Origin: Oribacterium sp. P6A1
Lineage (GTDB): Bacteria; Bacillota; Clostridia; Lachnospirales; Lachnospiraceae
Direction: 5' to 3'
Length of the DNA stretch: 58,518 bases
Assembly: GCF_000702885.1 (NCBI RefSeq)
Contig: NZ_JNKO01000017.1
Location: 1-58,518, forward strand
Below, in pieces: positions 4,299-27,524 of this stretch. Every line of letters begins with the position of its first letter. Positions within the stretch are counted from its first letter, which is position 1. The position numbers were made by a program, and so were the translations under genes. The notes below the pieces were generated by a model, which did no database searches, was not told where the DNA came from, and saw nothing but the letters and a program-made list of their open reading frames with translations.

Positions 4299-4340
4299 TA
4301 AATTATGTAAAACCCTCAAACAAATATCTGTATTCTAACG

Positions 4341-4378: not shown

Positions 4379-4407
4379 ACGATACTCTGATTTTATATTT
4401 CCGGGAT

Positions 4408-5318: not shown

Positions 5319-5349
5319 AAAAAGGACTCCGAAGCTGCCTTCGGAGCCC
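5319..5349 (-). terminator. Terminator of the ROK regulator gene
   Basis: The stem GG-A-CTCCGAAG/CTTCGGAG-C-CC (5324-5349) has a 4-nt loop and TTTTT on the minus strand. It lies 25 nt after the stop codon at 5374. Confidence 0.9.
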
Positions 5350-5373
5350 TATTGCTTTTGGTATGGGATTTTC

Positions 5374-6561
5374 TTATGCTTTTAACTTTAATATTTTATC
5401 ATTGAAAACTATGGCTACAGCGCCGATGGAATCTTCGAATTCGCCCAATGTGGATTTATTGATCATATCAATGTCTTCCATATGATAGCGTTCCACGAAA
5501 ATCCTCTTGAAGTTTTCTCTGATATAAGGCAGTTCAAACAGGCTGCCATAATAAATAATCTTATCCGGAGGCAGAACCATAGAAGCATTGTACAGGGCAA
5601 GAGCAAGCTTATCCATAACCTCATAAAGTATCTTTTCAAGACCGGAATCACGAATCCCTCCCCAAAGGGATATCGTTTTTGTCGTTATCTTTTCCCGATC
5701 TCCGCCAAGTGCCTCCCAGAGTTCCGGGGTTTCACTCTCCGAAAAACTCTCCCTGAGTTTTTCCGTAATGGTCTTTAATGAGACCATGGATTCAAGTGTA
5801 CCGCCCTTTTCATCCAGTATGATATGTCCGAGCTCGGGTATCCTTCCGTCCTGATTTCCATATACCTTGTTATTTATGGCTATGGCGGATCCAAGTCCCG
5901 GGCCCCATTTGACAAACACAAAGTTTCCTTTTTCCCTGCCTGCGCCGTAGATCAGCTCGGCAATGGCAAAGGCATTGACATTGTTCTCAACAATCACCGG
6001 AATGCGGAGACCTCTTTCCAGCTTTCTTCGGACAGGTACAGGTGCATTCCACAGGCTCGGGATATCATCCTCCATCAGTCTGTCCATTGAAACATTACCG
6101 GGCACCGATACTCCCGCTCCCAGGATGTCATCCGGCGTAATTGCCAGACTTTCCATCAGCTCATAGGCTGCGTCGATGATCTTCTCAAGAAATATCTCCG
6201 GCGGTAATTCAGTATCCGTTGCCAATGTCTTCTTCAGTAAGCATTTGCCTCTCATGTTATTTACGGAAACCACCGTCACATTTCTTTCGATACAGATTCC
6301 CAATATCTTCGTGAAATCGTCGTCAAGCCCTATGCGGATCTTTTTACGTCCCACATGAGCCTCTTCCTCCATCTCACCGTTTTCTTTCAGAATGCCTATC
6401 TCCAAAAGTTCATTGCTTATCTGTGTTACGGCAGCGGCAGTAAGTCCAAGTGCAGTCGCAATATCCTTCCTCGCCATATCACCCTTATCATTTAACAAAC
6501 GGATGATCTTACTTCTGTTTTCTGATTTAACATCGTTGCTGTTTATACCTGAGTATTTCAT
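5374..6561 (-). CDS. ROK-family transcriptional repressor, likely regulator of the sulfoquinovose operon
   Basis: 395 aa from the ATG with AGGAG five bases upstream (a longer in-frame start at 6582 lacks a ribosome site). Residues about 15-75 are a winged helix (RSKIIRLLNDKGDMARKDIATALGLTAAAVTQISNELL), and the rest is an ROK sugar-kinase fold (GAGVSVPGNV, ENNVNAFAIAELIYGAGR, FVKWGPGLGSAI). The usual ROK zinc site of a His plus three Cys is missing: after ELGHI the sequence is ILDEKGGTLES, with no cysteines. It follows the FucI-like isomerase gene in the same direction and is the only regulator next to the sulfosugar operon, which has a large inverted repeat over its start site (17093-17119). 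It is probably a sulfosugar-responsive repressor. Confidence 0.85.
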   Translation of the reverse strand: MKYSGINSNDVKSENRSKIIRLLNDKGDMARKDIATALGLTAAAVTQISNELLEIGILKENGEMEEEAHVGRKKIRIGLDDDFTKILGICIERNVTVVSVNNMRGKCLLKKTLATDTELPPEIFLEKIIDAAYELMESLAITPDDILGAGVSVPGNVSMDRLMEDDIPSLWNAPVPVRRKLERGLRIPVIVENNVNAFAIAELIYGAGREKGNFVFVKWGPGLGSAIAINNKVYGNQDGRIPELGHIILDEKGGTLESMVSLKTITEKLRESFSESETPELWEALGGDREKITTKTISLWGGIRDSGLEKILYEVMDKLALALYNASMVLPPDKIIYYGSLFELPYIRENFKRIFVERYHMEDIDMINKSTLGEFEDSIGAVAIVFNDKILKLKA

Positions 6562-6668
6562 GCCGTCTCCTATACGCTGCAAGAAAAATATAAAAAGGAA
6601 CTCTGTACATACTTTAATGAAAATGTCCGTATCCTAAGCATTCTTTAACACCATTGTTTGTAATTGTA

Positions 6669-6724
6669 ACATGGGATTTCAAGGCCAACCATGCACAAAA
6701 CGTTTGAAATCCCGTGTTTTTTTT
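6669..6724 (+). terminator. Hairpin between the isomerase and ROK genes
   Basis: A 14-bp stem (arms ACATGGGATTTCAA at 6669-6682 and TTGAAATCCCGTGT at 6704-6717) has a 21-nt loop. The T run (eight T) is on the plus strand, although the flanking genes are on minus. On minus it is preceded by A8 and has no U tract, so it may only attenuate or protect the isomerase mRNA end, or stop antisense transcription. Confidence 0.5.
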
Positions 6725-6762
6725 AGAAAAGCACTGACAATAGCCACATTTCCCAATCGGGA

Positions 6763-8103
6763 TCAGAACCTGTGCACTTCGATACCCAGCATATTTCCAA
6801 GCATTTCCAGTTCATCGGCACAGCTTCCGTAAGTCACAACATAGTGCGGTTCCCAGCCATCCTTGACTGCCTTCTCAACGATAGCCTTGGAGTTATTCTC
6901 TGTCTTTACTACGATAGATGTTCCAAGGAACTGTTTTGGCTTGTCAAGTACTGCTCCTTCTGCTATGAAGAATCTGAACTTTCCGTTCTCGTCTCTTCCC
7001 ACACGGAAAATGGTGGCATGCTCTGTGCTCTCGCAGCCGAATTCCATGGTCGGTCCAAGTTTTCTGTTAGGATGTACTCCAACTTCAGCTCCGGTGTCCT
7101 TTCTTGCAAGGTCACAGGCTGCCATTCCGCAATGCCAGAAGGTTATGGTATTCTCACCCTCATCAAGAGATACAGGATCCCCGAAGAAACAGGATCTGCC
7201 GGTGAGCTTTGAGCCTATATACATTGACAGAGCACCATAGGTATCGGATTCACAGCTTGCGCTTACTCCGAGAGAATTAAGGAGTGACAGTACCGCACAT
7301 ACAGGTGTTCCGAAATCCGTAAAGAAATCCGGCCAGCAGCGTGATGAAATGGCACCGATGTGATTTTCTGTGACATAATCCTTATAGGCCTTATAGAGCT
7401 TCGCAAAATCCTTTACGTTCTTCTCAGGAGTTTTATCAAGTCCGACTATCTTTTTCTTCGCATCCTCAAGGTAAGGCGCACACTCTTCATCGGTATATGA
7501 CTTAGCCTTGTTGATAAGCTCTCTTGATTCGATGGAATCAAGGGTTGCTCCGAAAACAGACGTGATATCTGCATCCAGCGCCCTTCCGAAACCGAAGCCC
7601 TGCGGTGTATGTCCGATGGACACAAGCTTCAAGCCCTTTAAATCTGCTTTTATCCTTGCTGCCTTGATAGCGGCCGCAGCCTTTTCGATGATTTCCTTTT
7701 CCTCAGGGCCTCCGAACATATACTCGAACTTTGAATCCTTACGGAAGGCCTTTATGCTGTTTGCGGCAGAGAAAGCACCTGTAAGGGAGTTAAGTCTGAG
7801 TCTTCCTCCGTCGATAACAGGTTCTCTCAGAGTCCAAAGCAGGATAGGACATGAAAATCTGCGAAGCACTTCTGTAGCATATGCAGCGTTGGCAAAAGTA
7901 ATGTTCTGTAAAACTATAAGATCCGGGTTGATCTCATCCAGAAACTCATCCAAAAGATCGATAGAGAGAAGCATCTCCTTTGGCACCACAACATCTTCTG
8001 TGATATCTCTAAGCATCTTTATTGATTTTTCGAACTGAATCTCAGCACTCTCTAAATGAAATGTTCCTACTCCGATAGGCACATATGCCACCTGAAAACC
8101 CAT
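6763..8103 (-). CDS. L-fucose/arabinose isomerase-like protein, candidate sulfoquinovose isomerase
   Basis: 446 aa, full length for the FucI/AraA-like superfamily (COG2407-type). The C-terminal half shows the family pattern: ISSRCWPDFFTDFGTPVCA, ASCESDTYGALSMYIGSKLTG, and ENTITFWHCGMAACDLA with likely metal-binding Glu/Asp/His. These enzymes interconvert aldoses and ketoses with Mn2+. In this operon the expected reaction is sulfoquinovose to 6-deoxy-6-sulfofructose, in the cytoplasm. The DUF4867 protein at 14666 is a rival candidate for the same step. It lies 200 nt downstream of tctA with its own AGAGGA ribosome site, and is the last enzyme gene before the regulator. The fold is sure; the substrate is inferred from context. 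Confidence 0.75.
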   Translation of the reverse strand: MGFQVAYVPIGVGTFHLESAEIQFEKSIKMLRDITEDVVVPKEMLLSIDLLDEFLDEINPDLIVLQNITFANAAYATEVLRRFSCPILLWTLREPVIDGGRLRLNSLTGAFSAANSIKAFRKDSKFEYMFGGPEEKEIIEKAAAAIKAARIKADLKGLKLVSIGHTPQGFGFGRALDADITSVFGATLDSIESRELINKAKSYTDEECAPYLEDAKKKIVGLDKTPEKNVKDFAKLYKAYKDYVTENHIGAISSRCWPDFFTDFGTPVCAVLSLLNSLGVSASCESDTYGALSMYIGSKLTGRSCFFGDPVSLDEGENTITFWHCGMAACDLARKDTGAEVGVHPNRKLGPTMEFGCESTEHATIFRVGRDENGKFRFFIAEGAVLDKPKQFLGTSIVVKTENNSKAIVEKAVKDGWEPHYVVTYGSCADELEMLGNMLGIEVHRF

Positions 8104-8302
8104 TGTTATTTCCTCTTTTCCAATTACTTTTAGTGTTCGATATCCGTTGTATAAGGTTCCTACATGCTTGGCACATATTTCGTCCGCTTTCTTGATGTAT
8201 CGAAACTTCAGATATCTTTTTTGTCTGATTTAAGTCTGTTTTTTTCGGAATGATTACCGTGACTCAAGATTCATTTTCCGTCCGGTCATCATTCACTCCC
8301 CT

Positions 8303-9865
8303 TCAACAAGCCTCTACCGAAAGATCCTCATGCATCTTTTCGATTTCTTCAGCCTGTGCATCATTAAGGGCCTCAACCTTCTTGTTGATTCTAATCATTG
8401 AAGTAACCAGAACAACAGTGATAAGAAGGATGATGAGAGATATAGGTCTCTTGAAGAAGATAAGATAATCTCTGTCATAGGACATCATGGCTGTAACAAA
8501 GTTTGTCTCCATGATCTTCGCAAGGATAAGTCCGAGAAGAAGCGGTATGGCATCTATCTCCATGATCTTAAGAAGATAGCTGAATACCAGAAGTACGGCA
8601 CAGAAGATCATTTCCTTGAAGTTTCCTGTTCCCGCAAATGCTCCTGCGAAGCAGAAAAGCATGATGGCAGGTGCAAGATAGGTGTACTTGACCTGAACCA
8701 CCTTTGCAACCGCTCTTGTCATGACTTTACCCAGGGGCCAAAGGAAACAGTTAGCAACAAAACATCCGACGATAATTGTGTAAGCCTGTACAGCCTGCTT
8801 TGTGAACATGTTTGGTCCGGGCTGCATGCCGTGGAGGATGAAAGCTCCGAGAAGGAGGGCTGTAACACCGTCTCCCGGGATACCCATGGTCATAAGAGGG
8901 ATCATTGCAGAACCAACCACAGCATTGTTTGAAGACTCTGCTGCTGCAATTCCTTCGAGAGAACCTTTACCGAACTTCTCGGGGTGCTTTGATAACTGCT
9001 TTGCCTGGTTATAGCAAAGGAACTGTGCAACACCGCCGCCTACGCCGGGCATGGCACCGATAAAGGAAGCGATAATTGTAGAAAGTGCTGTTGCAGGAAG
9101 TATTGACTTCGCCTCTGAAAGGCTTAATCCCTTCTTATCGATCTTGTTGGCGTCTTCCATCTTTCCGCCGTTTACCTTGAACTCCGCAAGCTTTCCAACA
9201 ACCTGCTTAAGAGCAACAAGGGCGATCATGGCAGGAAGCATATCGATACCGAACTGAAGTATGGATACTCCGAAAGTGAATCTGGAAACACCTGTTACGG
9301 CATCAACACCGATGCAGGCGATAAGTATTCCGAAAAGACCTGAAAGGATTCCCTTTGGAAGTGAATTTCCTGATACACCTGCAAGAAGTGAGATTCCAAG
9401 GATTGCCATTGAGAAATACTCAACTGAAGTGAACTTTGAAACAAATGCGGCAATCGGTGCAGCAAGAACAAGCAGTAAAAGTGCTCCTATGATACCACCG
9501 AAGGATGATGCAAAAAGTGATGTATCAAGTGCCTGGAGAACTCTTCCCTTCTTAGCCAAAGGATAACCGTCAAAGGTTGTGGCGATAGCTGAGTTTGTAC
9601 CGGGAGTATTGAGTGTGATGGCACTTATGGAACCGCCGTACATTCCTCCTACGTAAACCGCAAGGAGTGAAATGATAGCTGTACTCGGATCCTTGATTCC
9701 GTATGTAAGAGGAAGGAAAAGGATGATTCCCAGGGTAACACTGAGTCCCGGGATACAGCCGATAACCATTCCCATGAGCATTCCGCCGAATATGAATGCC
9801 AGATTTCCTAATGTAAATACCGCAGCAAAAGCGGATGAAATATAATCAAAATAACCCATAATCAT
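8303..9865 (-). CDS. tctA: Tripartite tricarboxylate transporter, large permease TctA
   Basis: 520 aa, about 11-12 membrane segments. It has the two conserved TctA glycine/proline motifs: LGNLAFIFGGMLMGMVIGCIPGLSVTLG near the N-terminus and IIASFIGAMPGVGGGVAQFLCYNQ near residue 270. TctA with TctB forms the membrane part of a binding-protein-dependent, ion-driven importer. Known substrates are carboxylates and, in some bacteria, the sulfonate sulfolactate. Here tctC-tctB-tctA sits inside a sulfosugar operon, so sulfoquinovose or its glyceryl glycoside is the likely cargo (inference). Stop and start of tctB and tctA are 6 nt apart. Confidence 0.93.
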   Translation of the reverse strand: MIMGYFDYISSAFAAVFTLGNLAFIFGGMLMGMVIGCIPGLSVTLGIILFLPLTYGIKDPSTAIISLLAVYVGGMYGGSISAITLNTPGTNSAIATTFDGYPLAKKGRVLQALDTSLFASSFGGIIGALLLLVLAAPIAAFVSKFTSVEYFSMAILGISLLAGVSGNSLPKGILSGLFGILIACIGVDAVTGVSRFTFGVSILQFGIDMLPAMIALVALKQVVGKLAEFKVNGGKMEDANKIDKKGLSLSEAKSILPATALSTIIASFIGAMPGVGGGVAQFLCYNQAKQLSKHPEKFGKGSLEGIAAAESSNNAVVGSAMIPLMTMGIPGDGVTALLLGAFILHGMQPGPNMFTKQAVQAYTIIVGCFVANCFLWPLGKVMTRAVAKVVQVKYTYLAPAIMLFCFAGAFAGTGNFKEMIFCAVLLVFSYLLKIMEIDAIPLLLGLILAKIMETNFVTAMMSYDRDYLIFFKRPISLIILLITVVLVTSMIRINKKVEALNDAQAEEIEKMHEDLSVEAC

Positions 9866-9871
9866 ACCTCT

Positions 9872-10348
9872 TTAGATTATTCCCTTGAGTATTCCGGCAG
9901 GAAGATCCACATGGAACACATTCTGGAAAAGGAAGTAAACTATGACCACCATAGCCAGTGTATAAATGTAGATAAGCGGCTTTCTTTCACCTTCATACCA
10001 TTGAATGGCGCAAAAGATAAGCATTCCTGCAGGAATAAAACCAAGTGTTTTTGTGAGTGCTACAAACACTACCAGCGCTGCGATAAGAAGCAGCTCTTTT
10101 CTTTCATTTTCCCAGACGAATTCATAAATATGCTCTTTATGGAAAACGAGACTTTGTACCAGAAGTATGATGGAACAGATAAGTATGCCAACCAGACATA
10201 TACCGGGTATGATTCTTGGGCTTGGCGCTCCCGAATCCCACATGGGAAGTCGCACCTGTGTAGGCATTACCAGAAGCATGATGACCGAAAACAGTCCCAT
10301 TACGATACCCGCCAGAAGGTTGGTTCTGATTTTAATTGTTTTTTTCAT
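9872..10348 (-). CDS. tctB: Tripartite tricarboxylate transporter, small permease TctB
   Basis: 158 aa from the ATG at 10348 (MKKTIKIRTNLLAGIVMG), which has GGAG eight bases upstream. An upstream in-frame ATG at 10390 would place coding sequence inside the hairpin at 10377-10406 and is less likely. Four hydrophobic segments, including LLLIAALVVFVALTKTLGFIPAGMLIF with the Lys-Thr-Leu-Gly-Phe feature typical of TctB. It is the small membrane subunit of the transporter, directly upstream of tctA. Confidence 0.9.
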   Translation of the reverse strand: MKKTIKIRTNLLAGIVMGLFSVIMLLVMPTQVRLPMWDSGAPSPRIIPGICLVGILICSIILLVQSLVFHKEHIYEFVWENERKELLLIAALVVFVALTKTLGFIPAGMLIFCAIQWYEGERKPLIYIYTLAMVVIVYFLFQNVFHVDLPAGILKGII

Positions 10349-10376
10349 AAGAAAATCTCCAAAATAGACCAAAACA

Positions 10377-10406
10377 GCCCGGCACTGCACAAAGGCAATG
10401 CCGGGC
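10377..10406 (-). terminator. Intercistronic hairpin between tctC and tctB
   Basis: A very stable stem (GCCCGGCA-C-TGC with GGCA-A-TGCCGGGC) lies 60 nt after tctC and 30 nt before tctB. The minus strand continues TGTTTTGG, a weak U tract. Such partial terminators after binding-protein genes usually give excess binding protein over permease. Confidence 0.7.
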
Positions 10407-10469
10407 AGCTCTTAAGTTTTTAACTTATTAATAATTCAATGAACAACTATTTATACCTGATAACCAGAA

Positions 10470-11576
10470 TCAGTTCTGACCGCTGAGAAGCTTGAATGCC
10501 TCAAGTGCTGCCTTACAAGCATCCTCATAATGCTGAACATCATCCTGTCCGTAGATCTCTGTATCGTTAAGCATGATGCTTGCGATGAAATCCTTGTACT
10601 CATCTGTTGCCCAAACGTCCTTGGCAACCTGAATAACTGCATCCTGCCACTCCTGTGAAGCGCCCTTACGTGTTGCAAGAGAACCGCCGGCAGGAAGGAT
10701 TGACTTTGTATAATCCTTAGAAGAATCAAGGTCAGCTGCCATATCGGCACCTGCAAGTGAAGGAACTGTTATATCACCCTGAGGTCCCTTGAAGCCTGTG
10801 AATGCCTTATCTGAGAATGCAAGTACAGGGATAAGATTTCCTGCTTCAACATCTTCCTGTGCAGCCTGTGTTGTACCTACGAAACAGTCAACTTCACCAT
10901 CTGTAAGGCCCTTCTTCTGAGCAGCACCACCGTCATAAGGTACTACCATCACCTTTCCGCCCTCCTGAGCAAGAAGTGAACCTAAAGCAAGATGTGGGTC
11001 TGAAAGAGGGTTTCCTCCGGACATCTTAAGTCCGCCTGTTTTTGACTTCTCAAGAAGTCCTGCAAGTGTCTGGTCAGGTGTTGTATAGAGGATCCATGTT
11101 CTGTCGTCTACTGTTGCAAGCGGAAGGATCTCACTTCTGTCAAACTCAACAACCTCTGTATTGAACTGCTTTCCGAGATCATGACGATAAGCTACACCGT
11201 ATCCGTAAACAAGAAGATCTGTTGTGCTTGGATCTTCCTGTGTAAATGCTGTTGCTGCTGCAAATCCGTCACCGCCTGTCTGCTGCTCAACGATGAAGTT
11301 GTACTCAGGATGAGTCTTTGTTGCTACTTCTGCGAACTTTCTTGCGATGATATCTGCTGTTCCGCCTACGCCGTAAGGGCAGATAACCTTAACTGTCTCA
11401 CCGCTTCCTGTAGCCTTATTTTCCTCTGCCTTTGTTTCTGCAGCTGACTCTGTTTTAGCTGCTTCTGTCTTTGCTGCCTCTGTTGCAGGTGCAGCTGTGT
11501 TTGAGCTTCCGCATCCGGTAAGTGATGCTGCTGCCATTGCTGTTGCAAGAAATCCTGCCAATAATTGTTTTCTCAT
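10470..11576 (-). CDS. tctC: Tripartite tricarboxylate transporter solute-binding lipoprotein TctC
   Basis: 368 aa. A lipoprotein signal peptide (MRKQLLAGFLATAMAAASLTGC, lipobox LTGC) anchors it outside the membrane. An Ala/Glu/Lys-rich linker (residues 25-58) follows, then a Bug/TctC binding domain starting VKVICPYGVGGTADIIARKFAEVA, whose P-Y-G-x-GGTAD loop is the family's ligand-binding motif. It captures the substrate for TctAB. The gene is first of the tctCBA block, behind the tauE-like gene at a 160-nt gap. It is probably the specificity component for sulfoquinovose or a related sulfonate; only the family is certain. Confidence 0.92.
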   Translation of the reverse strand: MRKQLLAGFLATAMAAASLTGCGSSNTAAPATEAAKTEAAKTESAAETKAEENKATGSGETVKVICPYGVGGTADIIARKFAEVATKTHPEYNFIVEQQTGGDGFAAATAFTQEDPSTTDLLVYGYGVAYRHDLGKQFNTEVVEFDRSEILPLATVDDRTWILYTTPDQTLAGLLEKSKTGGLKMSGGNPLSDPHLALGSLLAQEGGKVMVVPYDGGAAQKKGLTDGEVDCFVGTTQAAQEDVEAGNLIPVLAFSDKAFTGFKGPQGDITVPSLAGADMAADLDSSKDYTKSILPAGGSLATRKGASQEWQDAVIQVAKDVWATDEYKDFIASIMLNDTEIYGQDDVQHYEDACKAALEAFKLLSGQN

Positions 11577-11736
11577 AGTAACTTCCTCCTGTTTACTATA
11601 CCTTTAATAATTTTTATTTTACGCGGTCCTTTCAGGACCCATAATTCTGTTTCAGTCTGACAATGTCGTCTGCCCTCTGTTTGTGCTCCTATATCTCTAT
11701 AATTCCATCAGATCTATTCACACTTAGCCAATCCCC

Positions 11737-12558
11737 TCATAAAAGCAGCTTTACGCCCATGACGAGAAGCAATACATAACTCATTATCATGAATGTTCTC
11801 TGGCTCATCCTCTTGTAAAGAATGGAACCTATCTTAAGTCCCGAGAACAGGAACGGCGCTGCCACAAGAGCACTTATGATCAGTGATATATTCCAGTAGC
11901 CCGATCTTATGTCATCCACAAGTACCATACCGTTCAGAAATATCCAGACCGTTGAAATGGTGGTTCTGAATCTGTTCTTGTCCGGCAGCTTTTTAGTCAT
12001 ATAACTAATGAGAAGCGGTCCTCCGCTGACAAATATGCCATGTACTATTCCTGCTATAGGAAGAAGCAGATACAAAAGCCTGTCTTTGAAACTTTCTCTT
12101 CCGGAACTCTCCGAAGCAACATCATCTTCCTTTACATCCCCTGTGAAGGCAGCCTCATTTGTTTTGTCCCCTTCTTTATTCCGTACTCTCCCGGCGATCA
12201 GCTCCTTATAAAGGCCGTGAACCGAGACGCATATAACAAAGGCTCCAAGGACGAAATAAAGCATTTTCTCCTTTCCAAGGAGCTGATCCTTGATGAGAAT
12301 ACCAAGAAGTATTCCGCATCCCATGATCACTACTATCTTCCTAAGCTCTTTCCAGTCCACATATTTTCTGTTTCCCAGAAACACATATATGCCGCTTGCC
12401 ATACCAAGTACATTCAGTATAGGTTTTGCCGACGTATATCCAACCAGCATCAGCCCGAAGGGCATGGCCAGTACCGTTCCCGCAAAGCCTGTGACCCCGT
12501 GCATGATATGTGTCACGAATATGGCCAGAAAGAATAAAATGAAATTTGTACTTAACAT
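11737..12558 (-). CDS. TauE/SafE-family anion exporter, candidate DHPS/sulfonate exporter
   Basis: 273 aa with about eight membrane segments. The N-terminal half has the family motif FLAIFVTHIMHGVTGFAGTVLAMP, and the second half repeats the fold with PIAGIVHGIFVSGGPLLISYM. Between them lies a charged loop (residues about 125-160). TauE/SafE proteins move small organosulfur or sulfite anions out of cells and recur in sulfoglycolysis gene clusters. It begins six bases after the GH31 gene, so it is co-translated with the pathway. The likely job is export of dihydroxypropanesulfonate; direction and substrate are inferred. Confidence 0.85.
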   Translation of the reverse strand: MLSTNFILFFLAIFVTHIMHGVTGFAGTVLAMPFGLMLVGYTSAKPILNVLGMASGIYVFLGNRKYVDWKELRKIVVIMGCGILLGILIKDQLLGKEKMLYFVLGAFVICVSVHGLYKELIAGRVRNKEGDKTNEAAFTGDVKEDDVASESSGRESFKDRLLYLLLPIAGIVHGIFVSGGPLLISYMTKKLPDKNRFRTTISTVWIFLNGMVLVDDIRSGYWNISLIISALVAAPFLFSGLKIGSILYKRMSQRTFMIMSYVLLLVMGVKLLL

Positions 12559-12564
12559 TAGTTT

Positions 12565-14565
12565 TTATTTTCCGTATTTAACACGTATACCCTCGAAGAG
12601 TTCTCTGTATTTTGATGTCCTACGGTAAAATACAGGAGTATCACCGAGCTCCGCTTCTACGACATTGACACCATGTCCGTAGCTTTGTCCTGTCCAGAGG
12701 TGGATCCACTCATCATCCGGAAGATATACTTCTCTTTCTGTCTGCCCTGCTGTATAAACCGGTGCCACCAGAACATCTCTTCCGAGAAGATACTGGAACT
12801 GCTCCGTATAACATCGTGGCTCATCATAATGAAGGAACAGCGGTCTCTGAACCGGCATTCCCTTTTCATGATTTTCCCTGACTGCGTCCTTTATGTACGG
12901 TGCCATCATGGTGTAAATGTCTACAAGTCTCGCCATCCTGAGGATTCCGTCTTCATCATCGTAGAACTGGTAGCAGTCATCGGGACGGTTTCCTTCATGA
13001 GTCCTCATAACCGGTGTGAATGCCGCCATCTCAGCCCATCTCATGAATACTTCCTTGGTTCTGATATTACCGAAAAGTGAAGTATATCCGCCGATGTCGC
13101 TGTGGCTGATTCCGCATCCCATCATACCGGTTCCCAGAGCCGCCGAGATAACTGTGCAAAGTCCGTCATGTCTTGAAAAATCCACCGACTGATCCCCTGC
13201 CCAGAGAAGTGTGCAGTACTTCTGACTGCCGTTAGCACCTGCTCTCATGAAGTAAACTATCTTTCCGAGATTGCCCGTCTCGGAAACCGCTTCGTAATTG
13301 CATTTTGCCCAGAGAAGCGGCCAATGATTATGCTCAACCATAGCCTCTTTTCCGCTGTGAAGCACAATATCGTCAGTTGGAAGGTATTCACCGAAATCCG
13401 CCATCCATCCGTCGATTCCTATGTCAATGCTGTACTTCTTGATGATTCCCTTGAACCACTCGAAGGCTTCCGGGTTTGTAAGATCCACCGCACCGCAGTA
13501 GAACTCACCGAAATCCACAAGATATGTGGTACCATCGTGGCGCTTTGCGAAATATCCCTTTTCTTCGCCTTCCCTGAAAAGCTCTCCGTCATTCACAAGA
13601 TAGGGGTTCACATAACCGAGGAACTTGATTCCCTTTTTGTGAAGCTCTGCTATCTTCTCAGGAAGATCCGGATACATCTCTTTGTGATAATGCCAGTCCC
13701 ACTGAAGTCTCTTGCCGAAGCTTGTGATTCTCTTGCCGCACCAGTCCTGACACCAGATTCCCGAAAGCTTTACGCCTTTCTCACGTATCTTTTCCGCAAG
13801 TCCGAAGGACCTTTCATTTCCGCCCTGAACTCCGAAGATAAGTCCGTTATATACCCAGTCGGGAAGTTCAGGCTGCCTTCCGAAGTATGCTGTTTCCTTT
13901 AAAAGAAGTTCTTCAAAATCCTTTGCTGCCTCTATGCGTATAGAAGCGGGAACCTCCCAGATCTGAAGCTCATGGAACTCATCATATCTGAAATCAAAAT
14001 CAGCATAGGCTGTTGAATCAACATGGAGATAATATCTTTTTGATGAAACGAAGGTAGGCTCAGGATAGTTCGTATTGTAGTAGTCCCCTCCGGCCTTGTT
14101 CTCAACGTCCGATCTCCAGGTTACATATGTGGTTTTATCTCTGCCGACTCCCGGCTCTGATGTCCAAAGGGGGAAATGTCTCCCTCTCAGGTCAAAATAG
14201 GACATCTGCTCACCACAGCCATAGATATGCTCATCCTTGTCGGCTGCGACTCTGAACCAAAACCTGTTTATGGTCGGATCATGATTCTCTAATTTTATTT
14301 CCGCACACTCACCCTTTACGGCAACTGCAGCACTTATCTTTCCTTCAAAATCAAGAACAGTGATACCGTCTTTTTCTTCCGCTGAAGTAAGTTTCAAAGG
14401 AACCTTATCCTCCACATAATCCTCGATCTTGAAATTTCCTCTGTACATATCCACAGATTCTTTTCCATGACCCACATAAATCAAAGGTCTCTCCGAATCT
14501 GCGGAAAGGATGGTTCTGTCACCCTCTGTAAGTTTTAGTGTCTGACCAATAATCTGTAATTCCAT
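12565..14565 (-). CDS. yihQ: Sulfoquinovosidase, glycoside hydrolase family 31 (YihQ-like)
   Basis: 666 aa, no signal peptide, so cytoplasmic. It cleaves alpha-sulfoquinovosides such as sulfoquinovosyl glycerol to free sulfoquinovose. The identification rests on residues, not only family. The sulfonate-recognition triad of E. coli YihQ (Gln288, Arg301, Trp304) is present as Gln273, Arg286, Trp289 in GIWCQDWCG...SFGKRLQWDW. The nucleophile is Asp390 in GWMADFGEYLPTD (YihQ Asp405) and the acid is Asp458 in WAGDQ (YihQ Asp472). The offset to YihQ is 15 at four positions and 14 at the fifth. Ordinary GH31 glucosidases lack the Arg/Trp pair. It is central to the operon, between the DUF4867 gene and the exporter. 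The specificity call is strong although untested. Confidence 0.93.
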   Translation of the reverse strand: MELQIIGQTLKLTEGDRTILSADSERPLIYVGHGKESVDMYRGNFKIEDYVEDKVPLKLTSAEEKDGITVLDFEGKISAAVAVKGECAEIKLENHDPTINRFWFRVAADKDEHIYGCGEQMSYFDLRGRHFPLWTSEPGVGRDKTTYVTWRSDVENKAGGDYYNTNYPEPTFVSSKRYYLHVDSTAYADFDFRYDEFHELQIWEVPASIRIEAAKDFEELLLKETAYFGRQPELPDWVYNGLIFGVQGGNERSFGLAEKIREKGVKLSGIWCQDWCGKRITSFGKRLQWDWHYHKEMYPDLPEKIAELHKKGIKFLGYVNPYLVNDGELFREGEEKGYFAKRHDGTTYLVDFGEFYCGAVDLTNPEAFEWFKGIIKKYSIDIGIDGWMADFGEYLPTDDIVLHSGKEAMVEHNHWPLLWAKCNYEAVSETGNLGKIVYFMRAGANGSQKYCTLLWAGDQSVDFSRHDGLCTVISAALGTGMMGCGISHSDIGGYTSLFGNIRTKEVFMRWAEMAAFTPVMRTHEGNRPDDCYQFYDDEDGILRMARLVDIYTMMAPYIKDAVRENHEKGMPVQRPLFLHYDEPRCYTEQFQYLLGRDVLVAPVYTAGQTEREVYLPDDEWIHLWTGQSYGHGVNVVEAELGDTPVFYRRTSKYRELFEGIRVKYGK

Positions 14566-14665
14566 ACTGCCCTCTTTTGTTTTCTATATTGAAGCGTTTA
14601 TCTGTCACGAAGGCTGCGCCGCCGCTTCACAGTGACGGCTGCACCCCGTGATCATGGCAAAAGTT

Positions 14666-15337
14666 TCAATAATGGAGTTCCTTATTTGGTCCGATGACTC
14701 CTGTAACCGCTCCCTGTTTTACCAGTGGTTCTCTCTCAGGATGACAGATGACCCATTTGTTTCTCTGAAGAAGCAGCTCGCTTTCTTTATCTACAGGAGT
14801 GAGCTTTTCAAGAGGTGTATTGGTTCCCTTTGGCAGAATCACAACTCCCTTGAATCCTTCATCCGTCACTCTGCAGGGTGAAAGGTGAAGAGTTGTCTCA
14901 TACATCTCTATCACTGTGCCCTTCGGTACGAAGAATACCTGCACATCATTTATGTCATAGGTATTATCCTTTATGTCCCAGACATGTCCGAGACAAAGCA
15001 TAAAGTCTGTAACGGCAATGTTTATCTCGCTGCCTTTGTGATACTCGAAACCGTTGTATGTTGTGTTTCTTCCGTTGCAGTATCCGATTTCTATAGGCAT
15101 CCCTCCGTACAGAAGATTCTCAACCTTCTCTTTTACAGCCAGGTTCTCCATTTCGGGAACCGAGGCTACATAGACATTGCCCTGCTCCGGAATAGGAGTT
15201 TCTTTTTCCATATAGGCGATAACTTCCGAAAAATCATATCCTGTGACTACACGTCCGTAGGTCTTGAAGGCTTCCGGGTCAAGAACTGACTTTACAGAAA
15301 CATCATTAACTTCATTTAAATGCTTTAAAAGCTCCAT
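14666..15337 (-). CDS. DUF4867-family protein, possible sulfosugar isomerase
   Basis: 223 aa, no signal peptide. Beta-rich, with a cupin-like cluster of potential metal ligands: GFEYHKGSEINIAV (His and Glu), LCLGHVWD, MYETTLHLSPC. The family is DUF4867, which I recall as a recurring member of transaldolase-type sulfoglycolysis clusters, where it has been proposed as the sulfoquinovose isomerase; I cannot verify that here. If so, the FucI-like gene at 6763 would have another job or be redundant. It sits between the reductase and sulfoquinovosidase genes (gaps 94 and 100 nt). No strong Shine-Dalgarno was seen before ATGGAGC, so the start is less certain. Confidence 0.6.
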   Translation of the reverse strand: MELLKHLNEVNDVSVKSVLDPEAFKTYGRVVTGYDFSEVIAYMEKETPIPEQGNVYVASVPEMENLAVKEKVENLLYGGMPIEIGYCNGRNTTYNGFEYHKGSEINIAVTDFMLCLGHVWDIKDNTYDINDVQVFFVPKGTVIEMYETTLHLSPCRVTDEGFKGVVILPKGTNTPLEKLTPVDKESELLLQRNKWVICHPEREPLVKQGAVTGVIGPNKELHY

Positions 15338-15431
15338 AATTATTCATAGATAAACGGCCATCTCCCCTGTCGTTATTTTCCCCGTGGATCAACCACCGCC
15401 ATCTTTCATTCCCCTTTTACAGTTACTCTCT

Positions 15432-16295
15432 TTATGCCTTTTCAGATCTTACAACCTTGATGGTCGCCGAGAAGTCTTCCTTGGCAAATCCCATCTCCAT
15501 TGCCTTGTCGTAAACTCTAACTACGTTCATCTCACCCGGCATAGGAAGTCCCTTTTCCTCAGCAAGCTTCTTGCAGATGTTCACATCCTTATACATGTTC
15601 TCGATGGAGAATGCTGTTGTGAAATCATTCTTCTCAATAACGTCCTTCTTGCTGTCCAGATAGAAGTTCTGTCCGCCGCCGTAGGAAATAGCTGTTGCGA
15701 AAGTCTGAATGTCTATGCCGCAGACTGCTGCAAGGTTTGAAACTTCATTTACACCGTTCTGAATCTGTCCGACAAGTGCATTGTGAAGGATCTTCATGGT
15801 GATTCCGGTTCCGTTCTCACCCATACGGATGATGTTCTCACCCATGTAGGAAAGGATAGGACGAACTGTATCGTAAAGTTCTTCGTCACAACCAACGTAG
15901 ATTCCAAGCTTTCCTGCAATTGCTGCAGGCTTTGACTTAACTACGGGAGCATCTGCGAACTGAGCGCCTGTTTCCTTAACCATCTTTGCGATCTCAACTG
16001 AAACGCTTGGGTCGATGGTACTCATATCGATGCAGATCTTGCCTTTTCCAAGTTTAGGAAGGATTTCGGTATAAACCGCTCTTGAATGCTCTGACTTGGG
16101 AACCATGGAAATGATCACATCCGATTTCTCAGCGAGGTCAACATTGTTCTCAGCAGGAACTGCTCCCAGCTTTGCAAGTTCTTCAACCTTTGCTTTTGCA
16201 AGATCGAAACAGTAAACTGTGTCGTCGTGCTTTTTTACTATATTTGCACACATTGACTCGCCCATGATTCCGAGTCCGATAAAACCAATCTTCAT
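15432..16295 (-). CDS. Beta-hydroxyacid dehydrogenase-family sulfolactaldehyde reductase
   Basis: 287 aa from the ATG with GGAGG five bases upstream. N-terminal Rossmann motif GFIGLGIMGESM, with Asp31 at the end of the second strand, pointing to NAD(H). Catalytic Lys168 and Asn172 lie in GTGITMKILHNAL. The family's usual carboxylate-binding segment DAPVSGG is replaced by DAPVVKSKPAA (residues 115-124). E. coli YihU, the sulfolactaldehyde reductase, also departs from SGG at this place with a basic and a hydroxyl residue. It therefore probably reduces 3-sulfolactaldehyde to 2,3-dihydroxypropane-1-sulfonate, regenerating NAD+. It follows the transaldolase by 18 nt. Alternatives such as tartronate semialdehyde reductase fit the motif less well. 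Confidence 0.82.
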   Translation of the reverse strand: MKIGFIGLGIMGESMCANIVKKHDDTVYCFDLAKAKVEELAKLGAVPAENNVDLAEKSDVIISMVPKSEHSRAVYTEILPKLGKGKICIDMSTIDPSVSVEIAKMVKETGAQFADAPVVKSKPAAIAGKLGIYVGCDEELYDTVRPILSYMGENIIRMGENGTGITMKILHNALVGQIQNGVNEVSNLAAVCGIDIQTFATAISYGGGQNFYLDSKKDVIEKNDFTTAFSIENMYKDVNICKKLAEEKGLPMPGEMNVVRVYDKAMEMGFAKEDFSATIKVVRSEKA

Positions 16296-16313
16296 TGCTT
16301 CCTCCAAAAATGA

Positions 16314-17000
16314 TTACTCTGTCTTTGTGTTGTCCCATGCATCACAGAAGGTTCCGATTCCCTGAGTTGTGTATGCGTGGTGCTGAGCACTCTTGTAAAT
16401 TGCAAGACCTGCTGTGATGATGTCTGCACCTGCTACTGCGCAGTCAACCATCTGCTTTGGCGAACGAAGTGCTGCACAGATGATCTGTGTCTTTCCGTAG
16501 AAGCCGTAGTTCTTATAGATGTCAACGATGTCCTTGATGTACTGTCTGCAGTCTTCGCCGTTGTCCTCTTTCCAGCCGATGAAAGGTGATACAAAAAGTG
16601 AACCGTTCTTAGCTGCGAAAATAGCCTGTGCAGGAGCAAATACAAGTGTAAGGTTTGTTCTGATGCCTTCCTTTTCAAGCTGTCTTGCTGCTGCTACACC
16701 AGCCTCTGTTGCAGGAATCTTGATAGCAAAGTTTGGAGAAACCTTTGCATACTTTCTTGCCTCAGCCACCATATCCTCTGTCTTGTCAAGATGTGGATTG
16801 ATCTCGATGGATACAGGGAACTTATCGATACCCTCAAGGCCGTTTTCCTTAATCCAGTTTGCGATATCTGTAATGGCTGTTACAAAAGGCTTTCCGCTGA
16901 GCATGATGTGCTTAGGGTTTGTTGTTACACCGTCAATTCCGAATGTCTTGTACGCATAGTCAATCTCATCTAATTTTGCACTGTCTAAAAAGAACTTCAT
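16314..17000 (-). CDS. Transaldolase-family enzyme, candidate 6-deoxy-6-sulfofructose transaldolase
   Basis: 228 aa, the short transaldolase/fructose-6-phosphate aldolase type. Landmarks are FLDSAKLDEI, GVTTNPKHI, the Schiff-base lysine Lys94 in FAIKIPATEAG, and NLTLVFAPAQA. The loop that normally reads SPFxGR reads SPFIGWKEDNG, so the phosphate-binding Arg is replaced by Trp-Lys, consistent with an altered C6 group. In the sulfo-TAL pathway it moves the C1-C3 dihydroxyacetone unit of sulfofructose onto glyceraldehyde-3-phosphate, giving fructose-6-phosphate and sulfolactaldehyde. It is the first gene of the operon, with a GAGGAGG ribosome site and the promoter at 17122-17149. Family sure; sulfonated substrate from context. 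Confidence 0.85.
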   Translation of the reverse strand: MKFFLDSAKLDEIDYAYKTFGIDGVTTNPKHIMLSGKPFVTAITDIANWIKENGLEGIDKFPVSIEINPHLDKTEDMVAEARKYAKVSPNFAIKIPATEAGVAAARQLEKEGIRTNLTLVFAPAQAIFAAKNGSLFVSPFIGWKEDNGEDCRQYIKDIVDIYKNYGFYGKTQIICAALRSPKQMVDCAVAGADIITAGLAIYKSAQHHAYTTQGIGTFCDAWDNTKTE

Positions 17001-17092
17001 TACTTCCTCCTCTTTGACGAGAATCCTGTCCCCATTAAACCCATTTTCAATGGTCTGATTCCGTCTCGCCTGCTTCTTTATTTGATTTGCAT

Positions 17093-17149
17093 TAATTAGT
17101 TAATTCAATTAATTAATTAGTATTATAGTTAGTATTGCACAAATGTAAA
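17093..17149 (-). promoter_or_regulatory. Promoter and operator of the sulfoquinovose operon
   Basis: The minus strand shows TTTACA (17144-17149), a 16-bp spacer and TATAAT (17122-17127). Directly after the -10 box is an inverted repeat with 13-bp arms and one mismatch, centred on C17106 (17093-17119; core arms TTAGTTAATT and AATTAATTAA). It would cover the transcription start. An AT-rich palindrome over the start site suits an ROK repressor such as the one at 5374. The rest of 17001-17298 holds only the leader with its GAGGAGG site and AT-rich sequence. Confidence 0.65.
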
Positions 17150-23605: not shown

Positions 23606-24763
23606 TCACAGTGCCTCTTTATAAAGCATCACGCAGTCCTTGAGAGTGGTCTGTCTTGGATTTGCCATGATGTTAGCCTGTCCCTTCATGGCATCTTCTG
23701 CCATAACATCGATCTTATCTTCTGTTACCCCAACATCCGAAAGCTTCTCAGGTATACCGAGCTGCCTGTTAAGCTTTTTAAGTTCATCCACAAGCATCAT
23801 GGGAACGAAGTTCTCAACAGGTCCCTTCTCTTCCCTGATGTATCTGTAAATCTTCTCATACTTTCCGTCGCGGTCTGCAATGGCGTTGAACTCAGCCACA
23901 TAAGGCAGGAGGATGGCATTGGCAACACCGTGAGCCACATGGAAATGTCCGCTTACAGGGTGGCTCAATGCGTGAACGTCGCCGAGTCTTGCCCATGCAA
24001 ATGATATTCCCGCGAAGTTGGAACCCAGCATCATGGCGCTGGCTGCCTCAGTGTCCTTGCGGTTGGCGGTGAATCTGCGGAGATTCTTTCCGATAAGCTC
24101 CATAGCCTTCTCTGCCATTGCATCTGAGAATGGTGTGGCATTGTTTGAAACGTATGCCTCCATGGCGTGAATAAGGGCATCGATACCGCAGGAAGCTGCC
24201 ACAGAAGCAGGTGCGGTCATGATGAGCTCGGGATCAAGAATCGCAAACTTCGGAATCTGCTCATAACTGAAAACAGACATCTTGAAGTTTGTTATCTCGT
24301 CAGTAATTACCGCTGAAGCCGTAACTTCACTTCCTGTTCCCGCAGTTGTGGGAACAGCAATGATAGGTGTGATAGGGCCGGGAACCTTGCCTGTTCCCAC
24401 ATACTGCTGTATCTCACCGCCGTATGTTGCAAGAACACCAACGGCCTTGGCAACATCCATAGGGCTTCCGCCGCCGAGAGCAACGATGCAGCCTGCACCG
24501 GACTCCTTGTACTTTGCAGTTGCTTCTTTCACACAGGCAACTGTAGGATTCGGAATCACATCAAGAAAACTTTCGCAGCTGATGCCTGCTGCCTCTATAA
24601 GGTCAACTACCTTCTTAACTACACCTATGGACTCGAGTCCTCTGTCAGAAACAAGAAAAACTTTATCTGTCTTCATCTCTGACTTCACAAGCTCAGGAAT
24701 CTCCCTGAGGCTTCCCACTCCGAACTTTATAGTCTGCGGTACTTTAAATTCAAAATCTTTCAT
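23606..24763 (-). CDS. Iron-containing alcohol dehydrogenase, probable 1,3-diol or sulfo-aldehyde reductase
   Basis: 385 aa from the second in-frame ATG, which has GGAG six bases upstream (the ATG at 24775 overlaps that site). Group III Fe-ADH: NAD-binding GGGSPMDVAKA, metal-ligand region GIDALIHAMEAYVS and HPVSGHFHVAHGVANAILLPYV. In operons with a diol-dehydratase glycyl radical enzyme, such a gene is normally the partner aldehyde reductase: DhaT (3-hydroxypropanal to 1,3-propanediol) in glycerol fermenters, or the 3-sulfopropionaldehyde reductase in DHPS fermenters. Both disposals regenerate NAD+. It is 190 nt after the GRE gene. Which aldehyde is used cannot be told from sequence alone. 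Confidence 0.85.
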   Translation of the reverse strand: MKDFEFKVPQTIKFGVGSLREIPELVKSEMKTDKVFLVSDRGLESIGVVKKVVDLIEAAGISCESFLDVIPNPTVACVKEATAKYKESGAGCIVALGGGSPMDVAKAVGVLATYGGEIQQYVGTGKVPGPITPIIAVPTTAGTGSEVTASAVITDEITNFKMSVFSYEQIPKFAILDPELIMTAPASVAASCGIDALIHAMEAYVSNNATPFSDAMAEKAMELIGKNLRRFTANRKDTEAASAMMLGSNFAGISFAWARLGDVHALSHPVSGHFHVAHGVANAILLPYVAEFNAIADRDGKYEKIYRYIREEKGPVENFVPMMLVDELKKLNRQLGIPEKLSDVGVTEDKIDVMAEDAMKGQANIMANPRQTTLKDCVMLYKEAL

Positions 24764-24952
24764 CTCATTCTCCATTAATCAATTCCCAAAGCTCCGCGCT
24801 TTATCCAATGATACGCGAAAAATCAGGAACCATTCCATAATATTTATTTTTATAATCAGCTATAATCTCTCACCTGAAAGAATCATACATTTGTCATAAG
24901 CTTCCGGATGTATCCAGGTAAAAAAGCTTCTGAAAGTCCTATATTTCATAAA

Positions 24953-27439
24953 CTATCCAAAGCTAAGCTCTGTCCTCTGTATCAGATCTTTCTGCAGCGC
25001 TTTTCCAAGTTCCACGAAATAAGCGCTGTACCCTGCAACTCTCACCAACATGTCCTTATATTCCTCAGGATGCTTCTGTGCCTCCCTCATGGTTTTGGAA
25101 CTCATAATGTTAAATTGCACATGCATCGCTCCCAGCTTTACATACTGGTCTATAAATGCTATCAGGTTGTCTCTTCCCGTTATTCCCGCTACTGCGTCCT
25201 GGGGAAACTTCATGTTCATGAGAGTTCCGTTTCCTGCCTTGCTGTGGTCAACCTTTACAAGAGAGTTTGTCAATGCTGTCGGCCCCGACACATCATGTGA
25301 ACCTCCATCCGTATGCACCGGTCCCATGTTGTCGGAAATCGCTTCACCCTTCTTCCGCCCGTCAAGTGTGGCGTTGGTGGCCATTCCCATGGCGACATTG
25401 GCATTAACGGAATATACACCGGGATTGAACTGTCCGCCTGTGCGGTAAGTCTTTCTGCCGCTGATATGTCCGGTGTAGCAGTCAAACATGAACTTAAACA
25501 GCTCATCTGCATAGTCATCATCATTACCGTAATGATGGACCTTCGAACCGTTCACAAGGGCGTACAGCATTTCATGCCCCTTCCAGTTGTCCTTGACTGC
25601 TTTAAGAAGCTCTTCACCTGTATACCTATGCTCATCAAACATAAGCTGCTTTATGACCGAAAGGGAATCTGCGCAGGTTCCGAGACCGCTGGCCTGGGGG
25701 CCTATGCCGTTGTACTTTGCGCCGCCCTCTGTGAGATCCTTTCCCGTATCCATACAGTTTTGGAAAAATGCTGACACATAGGGTATGGGCTTTCTGTGTT
25801 CATGAGCCCCTTCGATGATGTACAGGCTTGAGCACATCTGGTCACACCAGTAGTCAAACTGCTTATCTATGCTTTCAAGAACCTCCTCAAAACTCTTGTA
25901 TGTAATGAGGCTTCCTGTATCCGGCCCGAACTGCTCATCTGAATCAAGGAACTTTCCTCCGTTAATTACCATTTCCAGCATCTTGGGTGTGTTAACGTAA
26001 GCGGCGTCATGCCAGCCGTACTCAGCTCCCGGAAGATCAGGTTCAACACAGCCCACGACACAGTAGTCCCTTGCTTCTTCAAGAGACATGCCCTTCGAAA
26101 GCATGGCTTTTATTGCGGGAGCATCATTGAAAAGCTTTGGGTGACCGAAGCCCGCACGTATACATTCAACTGTTTTTACCTTGAGTTCATAGGGAGTCTT
26201 CTCCGATACACGTACACAGATCCAGGGCACCATCATACGGGTTTGCTCCGAGGCTTCAAGAACCAGAAATGTAAGATCGTTTGTGGCATCATCCCCGTCT
26301 CTGCCGAGACCTCCGATGGTGAGACTTTCTCCACCGAAACCACGTCCGTTTCTTACGGCAGTTGAGCCCCAGTCTTTTAGCTTTGTGGGATTGTTCAGCT
26401 TCACAAACTGGTCTTCAAGTATCTCAAGAGCCTGCATCTTGGTGAGAACTCCGTCATCTATATCCGCCTTGTAATAAGGATAAAGCCACTGATCCATACG
26501 TCCGTAGGAGATGGAATGTCCGTTGCTTTCTATAGTTATGAGGGTTGTTGCAAAATTGAAAAGCTGAACCGCCTGCCAGAAGGATCTCGCAGGTCCTCCC
26601 GCAATCTGATGACAGTTAAATGCCATCCTTGTAAGCTCATCTTTTCTGACAGGGTCAGTTTCTGCCAGAGCTGTCTCCTCCGCAAGTCGGGCGTATCTCT
26701 CGATATATGCGATTGATGCCCGAAGTTCTATGAGCATGGCATCATAAAAATCTCTTTTATCCGAAAACTCAGGGTCCTTTTTGGATAAGGCTTCTCTGTG
26801 GGCTCTTGCTTCTTCAATGAGACCCATGAAGCCTACCTTCATGAGCTTTCCGTAATCTATGGCCAGATGCCCGGTTCCCGCATAATGATACAGATTAGTC
26901 TGGAAGATTTTCTTCCCGGCTTCAGAACCCTTGATCTGCTCTTCATCGAGTCTTCCTTCTACTTCATCCGCTACAGTTCTTCCCTGCCACCACTTTAAGA
27001 GTTCTATGGCTTCCTGTTTTTCCTCTTCGCTCCTCCAGTAAAACTGGTCATGCTCTCTGTCCTCGAAAGGATGGTTAACAGCTTCATCAAGTATCCAGTT
27101 AACAGAAAACTCAGGGTATATGGGTGCTGCCTTCGCGGGAGCAGCATTATCACCCAGGATAAGCTCACGGTCATATATATGAAGGGTGACATTTTCGAGA
27201 ATATTTTTAAATGCGTAAGCACACTGAAGCTTTGCCGGTGCCTTTGGATGCGCTTTGTAGGATTCTGTAACCAGCCTGAGGCGCTCGATATCTATCCAGT
27301 AATTCTTCTCAAGAAAATTCTTTCTAAGGAAATTTATCCTCGGAAACGGTGACCAGTCCTTGTGATTGACCTCGTATCCAAGGTGGCACTGATGATCATA
27401 AGGCTCAGTGCCTGAGCAGGTAGTGTGAAATTCTGCCAT
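24953..27439 (-). CDS. Glycyl radical enzyme, glycerol/diol-dehydratase type
   Basis: 828 aa from the ATG with GGAGG eight bases upstream (the ATG at 27469 has none). The glycyl loop is RVAGYSAYF with Gly803, and the thiyl site is VVGCVEP with Cys464 and general base Glu466. All substrate-binding residues of Clostridium butyricum glycerol dehydratase seem kept: His191 (H164), His308-Ser309 (H281-S282), Asp478 (D447). It is therefore a radical dehydratase of a vicinal diol, not pyruvate formate-lyase, which has a Cys-Cys pair. Candidate substrates are glycerol, propanediol, or DHPS (HpfG-like, giving 3-sulfopropionaldehyde). The nearby DHPS-producing operon makes DHPS worth testing. It is oxygen-sensitive and needs the activase upstream. 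Confidence 0.9.
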   Translation of the reverse strand: MAEFHTTCSGTEPYDHQCHLGYEVNHKDWSPFPRINFLRKNFLEKNYWIDIERLRLVTESYKAHPKAPAKLQCAYAFKNILENVTLHIYDRELILGDNAAPAKAAPIYPEFSVNWILDEAVNHPFEDREHDQFYWRSEEEKQEAIELLKWWQGRTVADEVEGRLDEEQIKGSEAGKKIFQTNLYHYAGTGHLAIDYGKLMKVGFMGLIEEARAHREALSKKDPEFSDKRDFYDAMLIELRASIAYIERYARLAEETALAETDPVRKDELTRMAFNCHQIAGGPARSFWQAVQLFNFATTLITIESNGHSISYGRMDQWLYPYYKADIDDGVLTKMQALEILEDQFVKLNNPTKLKDWGSTAVRNGRGFGGESLTIGGLGRDGDDATNDLTFLVLEASEQTRMMVPWICVRVSEKTPYELKVKTVECIRAGFGHPKLFNDAPAIKAMLSKGMSLEEARDYCVVGCVEPDLPGAEYGWHDAAYVNTPKMLEMVINGGKFLDSDEQFGPDTGSLITYKSFEEVLESIDKQFDYWCDQMCSSLYIIEGAHEHRKPIPYVSAFFQNCMDTGKDLTEGGAKYNGIGPQASGLGTCADSLSVIKQLMFDEHRYTGEELLKAVKDNWKGHEMLYALVNGSKVHHYGNDDDYADELFKFMFDCYTGHISGRKTYRTGGQFNPGVYSVNANVAMGMATNATLDGRKKGEAISDNMGPVHTDGGSHDVSGPTALTNSLVKVDHSKAGNGTLMNMKFPQDAVAGITGRDNLIAFIDQYVKLGAMHVQFNIMSSKTMREAQKHPEEYKDMLVRVAGYSAYFVELGKALQKDLIQRTELSFG

Positions 27440-27524
27440 GTGTTTATCCTCCGTTAGTTTTAAACACATTAAATTTTAGTCCGGACAGATAAGATTTAAC
27501 ATTACCCGCATTGCCTATTCCATG

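Follow-up and report, generated by a model that had tools for sequence, protein, structure and literature searches.

The window analysed here is a stretch of 58,518 nucleotides from Oribacterium sp. P6A1 (contig NZ_JNKO01000017.1 of an assembly of 3.7 Mb in 95 contigs), and its minus strand carries an operon of ten genes for the utilisation of sulfoquinovose (SQ). From position 17000 down to 5374 these are sftT, sftR, sftX, sftG, tauE, tctC, tctB, tctA, sftI and a gene for a ROK-family regulator, with 6-199 bases between neighbouring open reading frames (ORFs). All ten ORFs were found on this strand, as expected from an earlier note, made from the letters of the DNA, that described a single-strand operon (Table 1). 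The gene content is that of a genuine SQ utilisation operon of the sulfo-transaldolase (sulfo-TAL) type, and this portion of it is an already known pathway. Embedded in it are the genes of a tripartite tricarboxylate transporter (TTT), TctCBA, and we consider it quite probable that this sulfo-TAL operon takes up SQ through TctCBA, a member of a clade dedicated to that task.

The sulfo-TAL reading already put forward in the note fits every enzyme, with SftI and SftR falling under curated cut-offs, and the individual steps would follow from the protein families. Domain and structure matches bore out the transaldolase, the TauE-type exporter and the ROK regulator (Table 1). The dehydrogenase, SftR, had been described as lacking SGG, the consensus motif of beta-hydroxyacid dehydrogenases, and indeed has DAPVVKS at the usual position of that motif; its family is correct, its score with the sulfolactaldehyde 3-reductase model PRK15461 is 143 bits (cut-off 348 bits), and 6SM7 is not its top PDB match. 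The isomerase, left open in the note, is now placed at the penultimate gene of the operon: its sole NCBIfam match is the SftI model, at a score under the curated cut-off, which none of the 397 genomes of the family reaches, and no PDB match was found for it. The predicted residues of the GH31 enzyme SftG are all there, namely Gln273, Arg286 and Trp289, which we take to be the sulfonate triad of YihQ, and Asp390 and Asp458, presumably catalytic. No signal peptide was seen in SftG on inspection by eye, and the enzyme looks cytoplasmic. Its alignment with 6PNR spans nearly the whole protein, and it also matches the YihQ-named chains 5OHY and 5AED; 6PNR is the structure of the SftG sulfoquinovosidase of E. 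rectale (PMC11968277). The DUF4867 protein SftX, absent from the earlier note, is proposed as a candidate ring-opening enzyme for SQ or sulfofructose (SF) or as a mutarotase; a mutarotase or ring-isomerase role has been suggested for the 9GYY protein, with no activity detected (PMC11968277).

Table 1. Features of the SQ operon, its control region and the upstream hpf genes in the window.
Feature	Position	Strand	Support
SftT, SF transaldolase	16314..17000	-	PF00923; best PDB match BmSF-TAL 8BC3, E 5.5e-83
SftR, sulfolactaldehyde reductase (beta-hydroxyacid dehydrogenase)	15432..16307	-	PF03446 + PF14833
SftX, DUF4867 cupin	14666..15337	-	PF16161 260.9 bits; DUF4867 structure 9GYY, E 4.1e-72
SftG/YihQ, GH31 sulfoquinovosidase	12565..14565	-	6PNR 1120 bits; 5OHY 813; 5AED 798
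TauE/SafE-family exporter	11737..12558	-	PF01925 80.3 bits
TctC, TTT substrate-binding protein, lipobox-like start, divergent	10470..11576	-	PF03401 22.4 bits (cut-off 27)
TctB, small membrane subunit	9872..10390	-	PF07331 69.5 bits
TctA, large membrane subunit	8303..9865	-	PF01970 436 bits
SftI, sulfoquinovose isomerase	6763..8103	-	NF048012 416 bits (cut-off 700); PF02952
ROK-family transcriptional regulator	5374..6582	-	PF00480 + PF13412
Sigma-70-like promoter TTTACA-16-TATAAT	17122..17149	-	11/12 consensus match
AT-rich palindrome, candidate ROK operator	17093..17119		27 bases, 12 pairs
Strong terminator-like hairpin, tctC/tctB gap	10377..10406	-	12 pairs, 9 G-C
Terminator-like hairpin past ROK gene	5323..5350	-	
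HpfD candidate, Fe-type alcohol dehydrogenase (3-sulfopropionaldehyde reductase)	23606..24775	-	PF00465
HpfG, dihydroxypropanesulfonate dehydratase (glycyl radical enzyme)	24953..27469	-	NF048009 1523 bits (cut-off 1000)
HpfH, HpfG-activating radical SAM enzyme	27751..28695	-	NF048008 524.6 bits (cut-off 500)

The importer idea of the earlier note gains comparative support from the recurrence of TctCBA beside SQ genes. A scan of named genomes, queried with an alignment of five TctA sequences, all from SQ loci, and with two short peptide patterns, returned 69 pattern matches, from which 46 loci were confirmed (designated here by L numbers); neighbouring genes played no part in the selection. 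Because of the origin of these queries, the scan favours close relatives and may miss others. SftG and/or SftI (at least 40% identity, within 10 kb) accompany TctA in 42 of the 46 loci, and both do so in 37. The genes of the downstream branch vary among the 46: SftT is the only one in 21, transketolase the only one in 7, the two occur together in 3 and phosphofructokinase is present in 1 (L110, Halalkalibacter), with no recognised branch gene in 14, several of which lie on short contigs and four of which are the loci without SftG and SftI. The compounds common to the transaldolase, transketolase and phosphofructokinase routes are SQ, its glycoside and SF. Since the linkage to SftG and SftI recurs and co-occurrence holds within the genus (see below), the linkage suggests that the cargo of the TTT is the substrate common to these loci, SQ or its glycoside.

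Within the genus, the 6 genomes (of 17) that encode SftI are also those that encode a TctA of the window type, and the two genes are neighbours every time (Fisher p 8e-5, relatedness ignored). The TctA copies next to SftI are 87-98% identical to that of the window (98% in Oribacterium sp. WCC10), the other listed copies at most 38%, and the window type thus differs from the ordinary TctA of the genome. At the family level TctA of the window type was found at E<=1e-150 in 4 of 397 genomes, all four, the window included, with SftI alongside. In the class sample it was present in 3 of 391 genomes, which are the own genome, one of the family examples and G504, a member of another family in which TctA is accompanied by SftG, SftT and SftI (L072). 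The family and class examples (L083, L090, L107, L109) and several of the genus genomes recur within the 46 loci, and the family, class, genus and 46-locus counts are therefore not independent. SftI-like matches of at most 244 bits (L031-L034 and others) were excluded from the SQ loci, with the cut placed in the gap between 369 and 244 bits.

In a TctA tree, built by a quick method and with long outgroup branches, the window and the 46 scan sequences form a single clade, together with one row (L146) that is labelled generic, is identical to the TctA of L076, probably from one and the same genome, and accounts for the second label change. A scan of viral contigs gave one TctA at 32% (L073), used as an outgroup row only, and for L134 no TctA protein was obtained. 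Two Treponema loci (L079 and L097) branch among Bacillota, and L079 retains the Oribacterium gene order, which suggests transfer between Bacillota and Spirochaetota; on this quick tree, the TctA locus may have been passed between phyla. The operon is also present in C. symbiosum ATCC 14940 (L080) and C. clostridioforme AGR2157 (L085), both of species known to ferment SQ. In the deep-branching loci L104, L108 and L110 an M24-peptidase-like protein (identified by Pfam in L110 only) is encoded just after or near SftI; we know of no role of such proteins in SQ use.

Several observations weigh against SQ uptake by TctCBA. Four of the 46 loci (L088, L102, L103 and L113) lack SftG and SftI nearby; both genes are present elsewhere in the genomes of L088 and L103, and neither was found in the genome of L102 (an assembly of 2.2 Mb). 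In L088 (positions 1-7823) TctCBA is followed by HpsG, an enzyme acting on 2,3-dihydroxypropane-1-sulfonate (DHPS), an activase-like gene and a ROK gene, on a contig with neither SftI nor SftG, both of which lie on other contigs. A second carrier, of the GPH type, is held by 3 of 19 genomes (those of L099, L118 and L119), and the genome-wide importer search took in GPH carriers only. TctC stays below the PF03401 cut-off, as do the TctC proteins of L080 and L085, and the familiar cargoes of TTTs are carboxylates and sulfolactate (PMC5812351). As a separate observation, the genome of L113 (G815, Spirochaetales) encodes on contig C9:862-3980 a YihQ-like GH31 (43%) adjoining an SftI-like isomerase (28%), a pair that perhaps serves a different sulfosugar.

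The binding protein itself has a distinctive sequence. In the PDB it matches substrate-binding proteins of TTTs, 8HKB most strongly (E 3.6e-11), a lipobox-like pattern lies within the first 45 residues in 28 of the 37 aligned TctC proteins of the clade, and TctC is probably a surface lipoprotein. Tyr68, Asp103, Asp157, Asp158, Arg159, His195 and Glu228 are invariant in all 37, and Arg131 and Lys221 are each present in 36. A profile search gave 15 further TctC proteins for comparison; none of these has Arg159 or Lys221, and the column of Arg131 holds a gap in 13 and Gln in 2. Asp157 aligns with a proline of 8HKB, which would correspond to Pro104, reported as needed for binding and as shared by the characterised binding proteins of TTTs (PMC13390454). 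Lys221, perhaps with Arg131, is a candidate ligand of the sulfonate. With moderate confidence, we regard this distinct TctA/TctC clade of Bacillota and Spirochaetota as a putative dedicated importer of sulfonated hexoses with a rebuilt TctC pocket. TctC also retains the GG(T)xD loop, of the binding type in other TTT proteins (PMC13390454), as would be expected if the TTT took up a carboxylate merely co-metabolised with SQ and an unlinked system imported SQ; the presence of TctA and SftI in the same genomes of the genus, and together in loci of other families, makes this very improbable, in a comparison of loci that did not cover genes of carboxylate metabolism.

Uptake of SQ by TctCBA is further consistent with the distribution of other carriers. 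No match (E<=1e-60) to a GPH carrier like that of L052, which we would guess from its gene position to be the SftA of the literature, was found in 16 of the 19 genomes, the own genome included. Of the 42 SQ-linked TTT loci, 41 showed no second importer to probes limited to GPH, SSS and one ABC set; L099 is a TTT locus with a GPH carrier as well. Besides the window there are 25 SftI loci in the family, 3 of them with TctA; the other 22 have an ABC system (3), a GPH carrier of at least 60% identity (4), an SSS carrier (2) or no recognised carrier (13), and these probes cover mutual exclusion among the importers only in part. In AGR2157 (L085) TauE, TctC, TctB and TctA are the four genes between SftG and SftI, and the tested GPH carrier was not found in its genome. 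The exporter candidates differ among the TTT loci, being TauE, a DASS-type or an EamA-type carrier. TauE, whose cargo, judged from linkage, is probably the C3-sulfonate product, adjoins TctCBA here and (at least 40%) occurs in 17 of the 46 loci only, and TctCBA might for these reasons be thought a secondary system for export of the C3-sulfonate, with TauE doing something else. We regard this as barely credible, given that the TTT is retained where the locus has a carrier of the DASS or EamA type, and that binding-protein-dependent transporters are expected to import.

A second group of genes, beyond the coordinates of the earlier note, lies 6.6 kb upstream of the sft operon on the same strand and encodes HpfG, HpfH and a candidate HpfD. 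For the last, no NCBIfam model scored over its cut-off; it shares 71% identity with the Fe-type alcohol dehydrogenase (FeADH) next to HpfG in L045, and 90% and 93% with the FeADHs between HpfG and SftT in L105 and L076, where HpfG and FeADH stand directly upstream of sftT. Identification of HpfG as the sulfite-releasing lyase HpsG was ruled out (1523 bits with NF048009 versus 505 bits with NF048011). In the window a sucrose-type operon (GH32, LacI and an ABC importer, 17510-23298) separates the hpf from the sft genes; the GH32 and LacI genes are common to the window and L074, and L105 and L076 have nothing comparable between HpfD and SftT. A LuxR-type regulator gene (28921-30162) adjoins the HpfD-HpfG-HpfH module, and a Clostridiales-1 RNA (Rfam RF01699; 50.5 bits, gathering threshold 48) lies at 30949-31065.

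The DHPS named as product in the earlier note fits the pathway, and since HpfG, HpfH and HpfD are linked it is probably not the only end product. Because HpfG and HpfD adjoin sftT in two relatives, DHPS may be carried on to 3-hydroxypropanesulfonate (3-HPS), as happens in an extended sulfo-TAL pathway already described (PMC11489063). Counting against this, 3-HPS was undetected in E. clostridioformis YL32 despite its HpfGHD (PMC12330013). In Treponema zioleckii (L097:547-12734) TctCBA, SftT, SftR, SftX, SftI and SftG stand together with HpsG (NF048011, 1387 bits) and an activase-like gene; judging by this gene content, a single organism might run SQ through to sulfite.

The nearness of HpfG also bears on the transporter, as the TTT could take up DHPS or sulfolactate for HpfG while SQ enters otherwise. 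HpfG is found in 9 of the 46 TTT genomes, L088 pairs TctCBA with HpsG and its activating enzyme, and TTTs for sulfolactate are known (PMC5812351). On the other hand, 37 of the 46 genomes, many of them drafts, have no HpfG match (E<=1e-200; HpsG uncounted), SftR (at least 40%) occurs in just 20 of the 46 loci, some on short contigs, the TTT also accompanies transketolase or phosphofructokinase branches, and nearly all of the SQ loci showed no other importer to the GPH, SSS and ABC probes. Import of DHPS is, on balance, unlikely.

The strong promoter and palindrome of the earlier note were both found. Promoter-like sites are no commoner in the region than in shuffles (37 versus 36.2 expected), so that the match alone carries little weight and its support rests on conservation: the hexamers recur upstream of sftT in each further Oribacterium locus tested, three in all (L074, L076 and L105), were not found upstream in L079, L080 and L085, and are replaced by a different pair in L092. 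The palindrome directly follows the promoter, 92 bases ahead of the start codon, and its score was matched in none of 300 mononucleotide shuffles, which keep base composition and not dinucleotides. L074 has a near-copy and L105 an altered relative, and the best palindrome of L076 differs. Judged from linkage, the ROK protein probably represses at this site. The real start of TctB is probably an internal ATG, and the hairpin between tctC and tctB may hold the tctC message in excess.

Taken together, the following course may be proposed, in which the substrates of the TTT and TauE and the action of the ROK protein are inferred from linkage only. TctC would capture SQ or sulfoquinovosyl glycerol, and TctA and TctB would drive it inward on an ion gradient. 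SftG would split the glycoside, and SftI, perhaps aided by SftX, would yield SF. SftT would then transfer a C3 unit onto glyceraldehyde-3-phosphate, with fructose-6-phosphate and sulfolactaldehyde as products, and SftR would reduce the sulfolactaldehyde to DHPS. HpfG, HpfH and HpfD would dehydrate DHPS and reduce the product to 3-HPS as an extra electron sink, TauE would send out the C3-sulfonate, and the ROK protein would probably hold the operon repressed.

The plant sulfosugar SQ ranks with the most abundant of organosulfur compounds, and when it is fermented in the gut, producers of hydrogen sulfide are fed. If uptake by TctCBA is true, SQ uptake becomes annotatable in these genomes, the substrates of TTTs extend to hexose sulfonates, and the TctCBA clade would be a main SQ entry route in gut and rumen fermenters. 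With HpfGHD linked, the compound predicted to be cross-fed may also be 3-HPS in place of DHPS; B. wadsworthia showed no growth on 3-HPS (PMC11489063). SQ-grown C. symbiosum expressed its sulfofructose transaldolase (SFT) genes (PMC8397734, citing Frommeyer 2020), and E. clostridioformis YL32 converted SQ to DHPS nearly one to one (PMC12330013); these growth data come from strains other than those carrying the operon here (ATCC 14940 and AGR2157). A figure legend on YL32 has SftA, bare of any locus tag, as the importer of E. clostridioformis, with SftI and YihQ tagged; if tags rise by fives, about five genes would fit between these two (PMC12330013). Yet strain AGR2157 has TctCBA between SftG and SftI. 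Among the open-access papers listed, PMC10507020 included, none was found in which SQ is the substrate of a TTT, most subscription papers lying outside this scope, and the assignment is tentatively taken as new.

Among known systems, the SQ-glycerol importer SmoEFGH resembles the TTT in the binding-protein-dependent uptake of SQ glycosides and differs in being an ATP-driven ABC system, the TTT being a secondary transporter. SmoEFGH is named in a figure legend (PMC13219744). The sulfolactate transporter SlcHFG (PMC5812351), compared by description, is likewise a TTT for an organosulfonate, with a C3 sulfonate bearing a carboxylate as its cargo. The earlier note's account of TTTs, as a class known for carboxylates and sulfolactate, needs correcting for one published in 2026 for alginate oligosaccharides in Vibrio sp. 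C42 (PMC13390454), also encoded inside a sugar-utilisation locus; its sugars are carboxylated and its host is marine, and it too was compared by description, not by sequence. The extended sulfo-TAL pathway of Enterococcus gilvus (PMC11489063) shares HpfG, HpfH, HpfD and TauE near the sulfo-TAL genes, whereas the window has the intervening sucrose-type operon and the TTT importer; HpfX and HpfYZ were not noticed by eye in the ORF lists of the window, without a dedicated search. The sulfo-TAL (sulfo-SFT) systems of B. aryabhattai/megaterium, E. rectale and C. symbiosum have counterparts of SftT, SftG and SftX, and of the candidate SftI and SftR, and for them the published importer is SftA (most likely; PMC11659671) or SqvU (PMC11489063), whereas here TctCBA fills the import slot.

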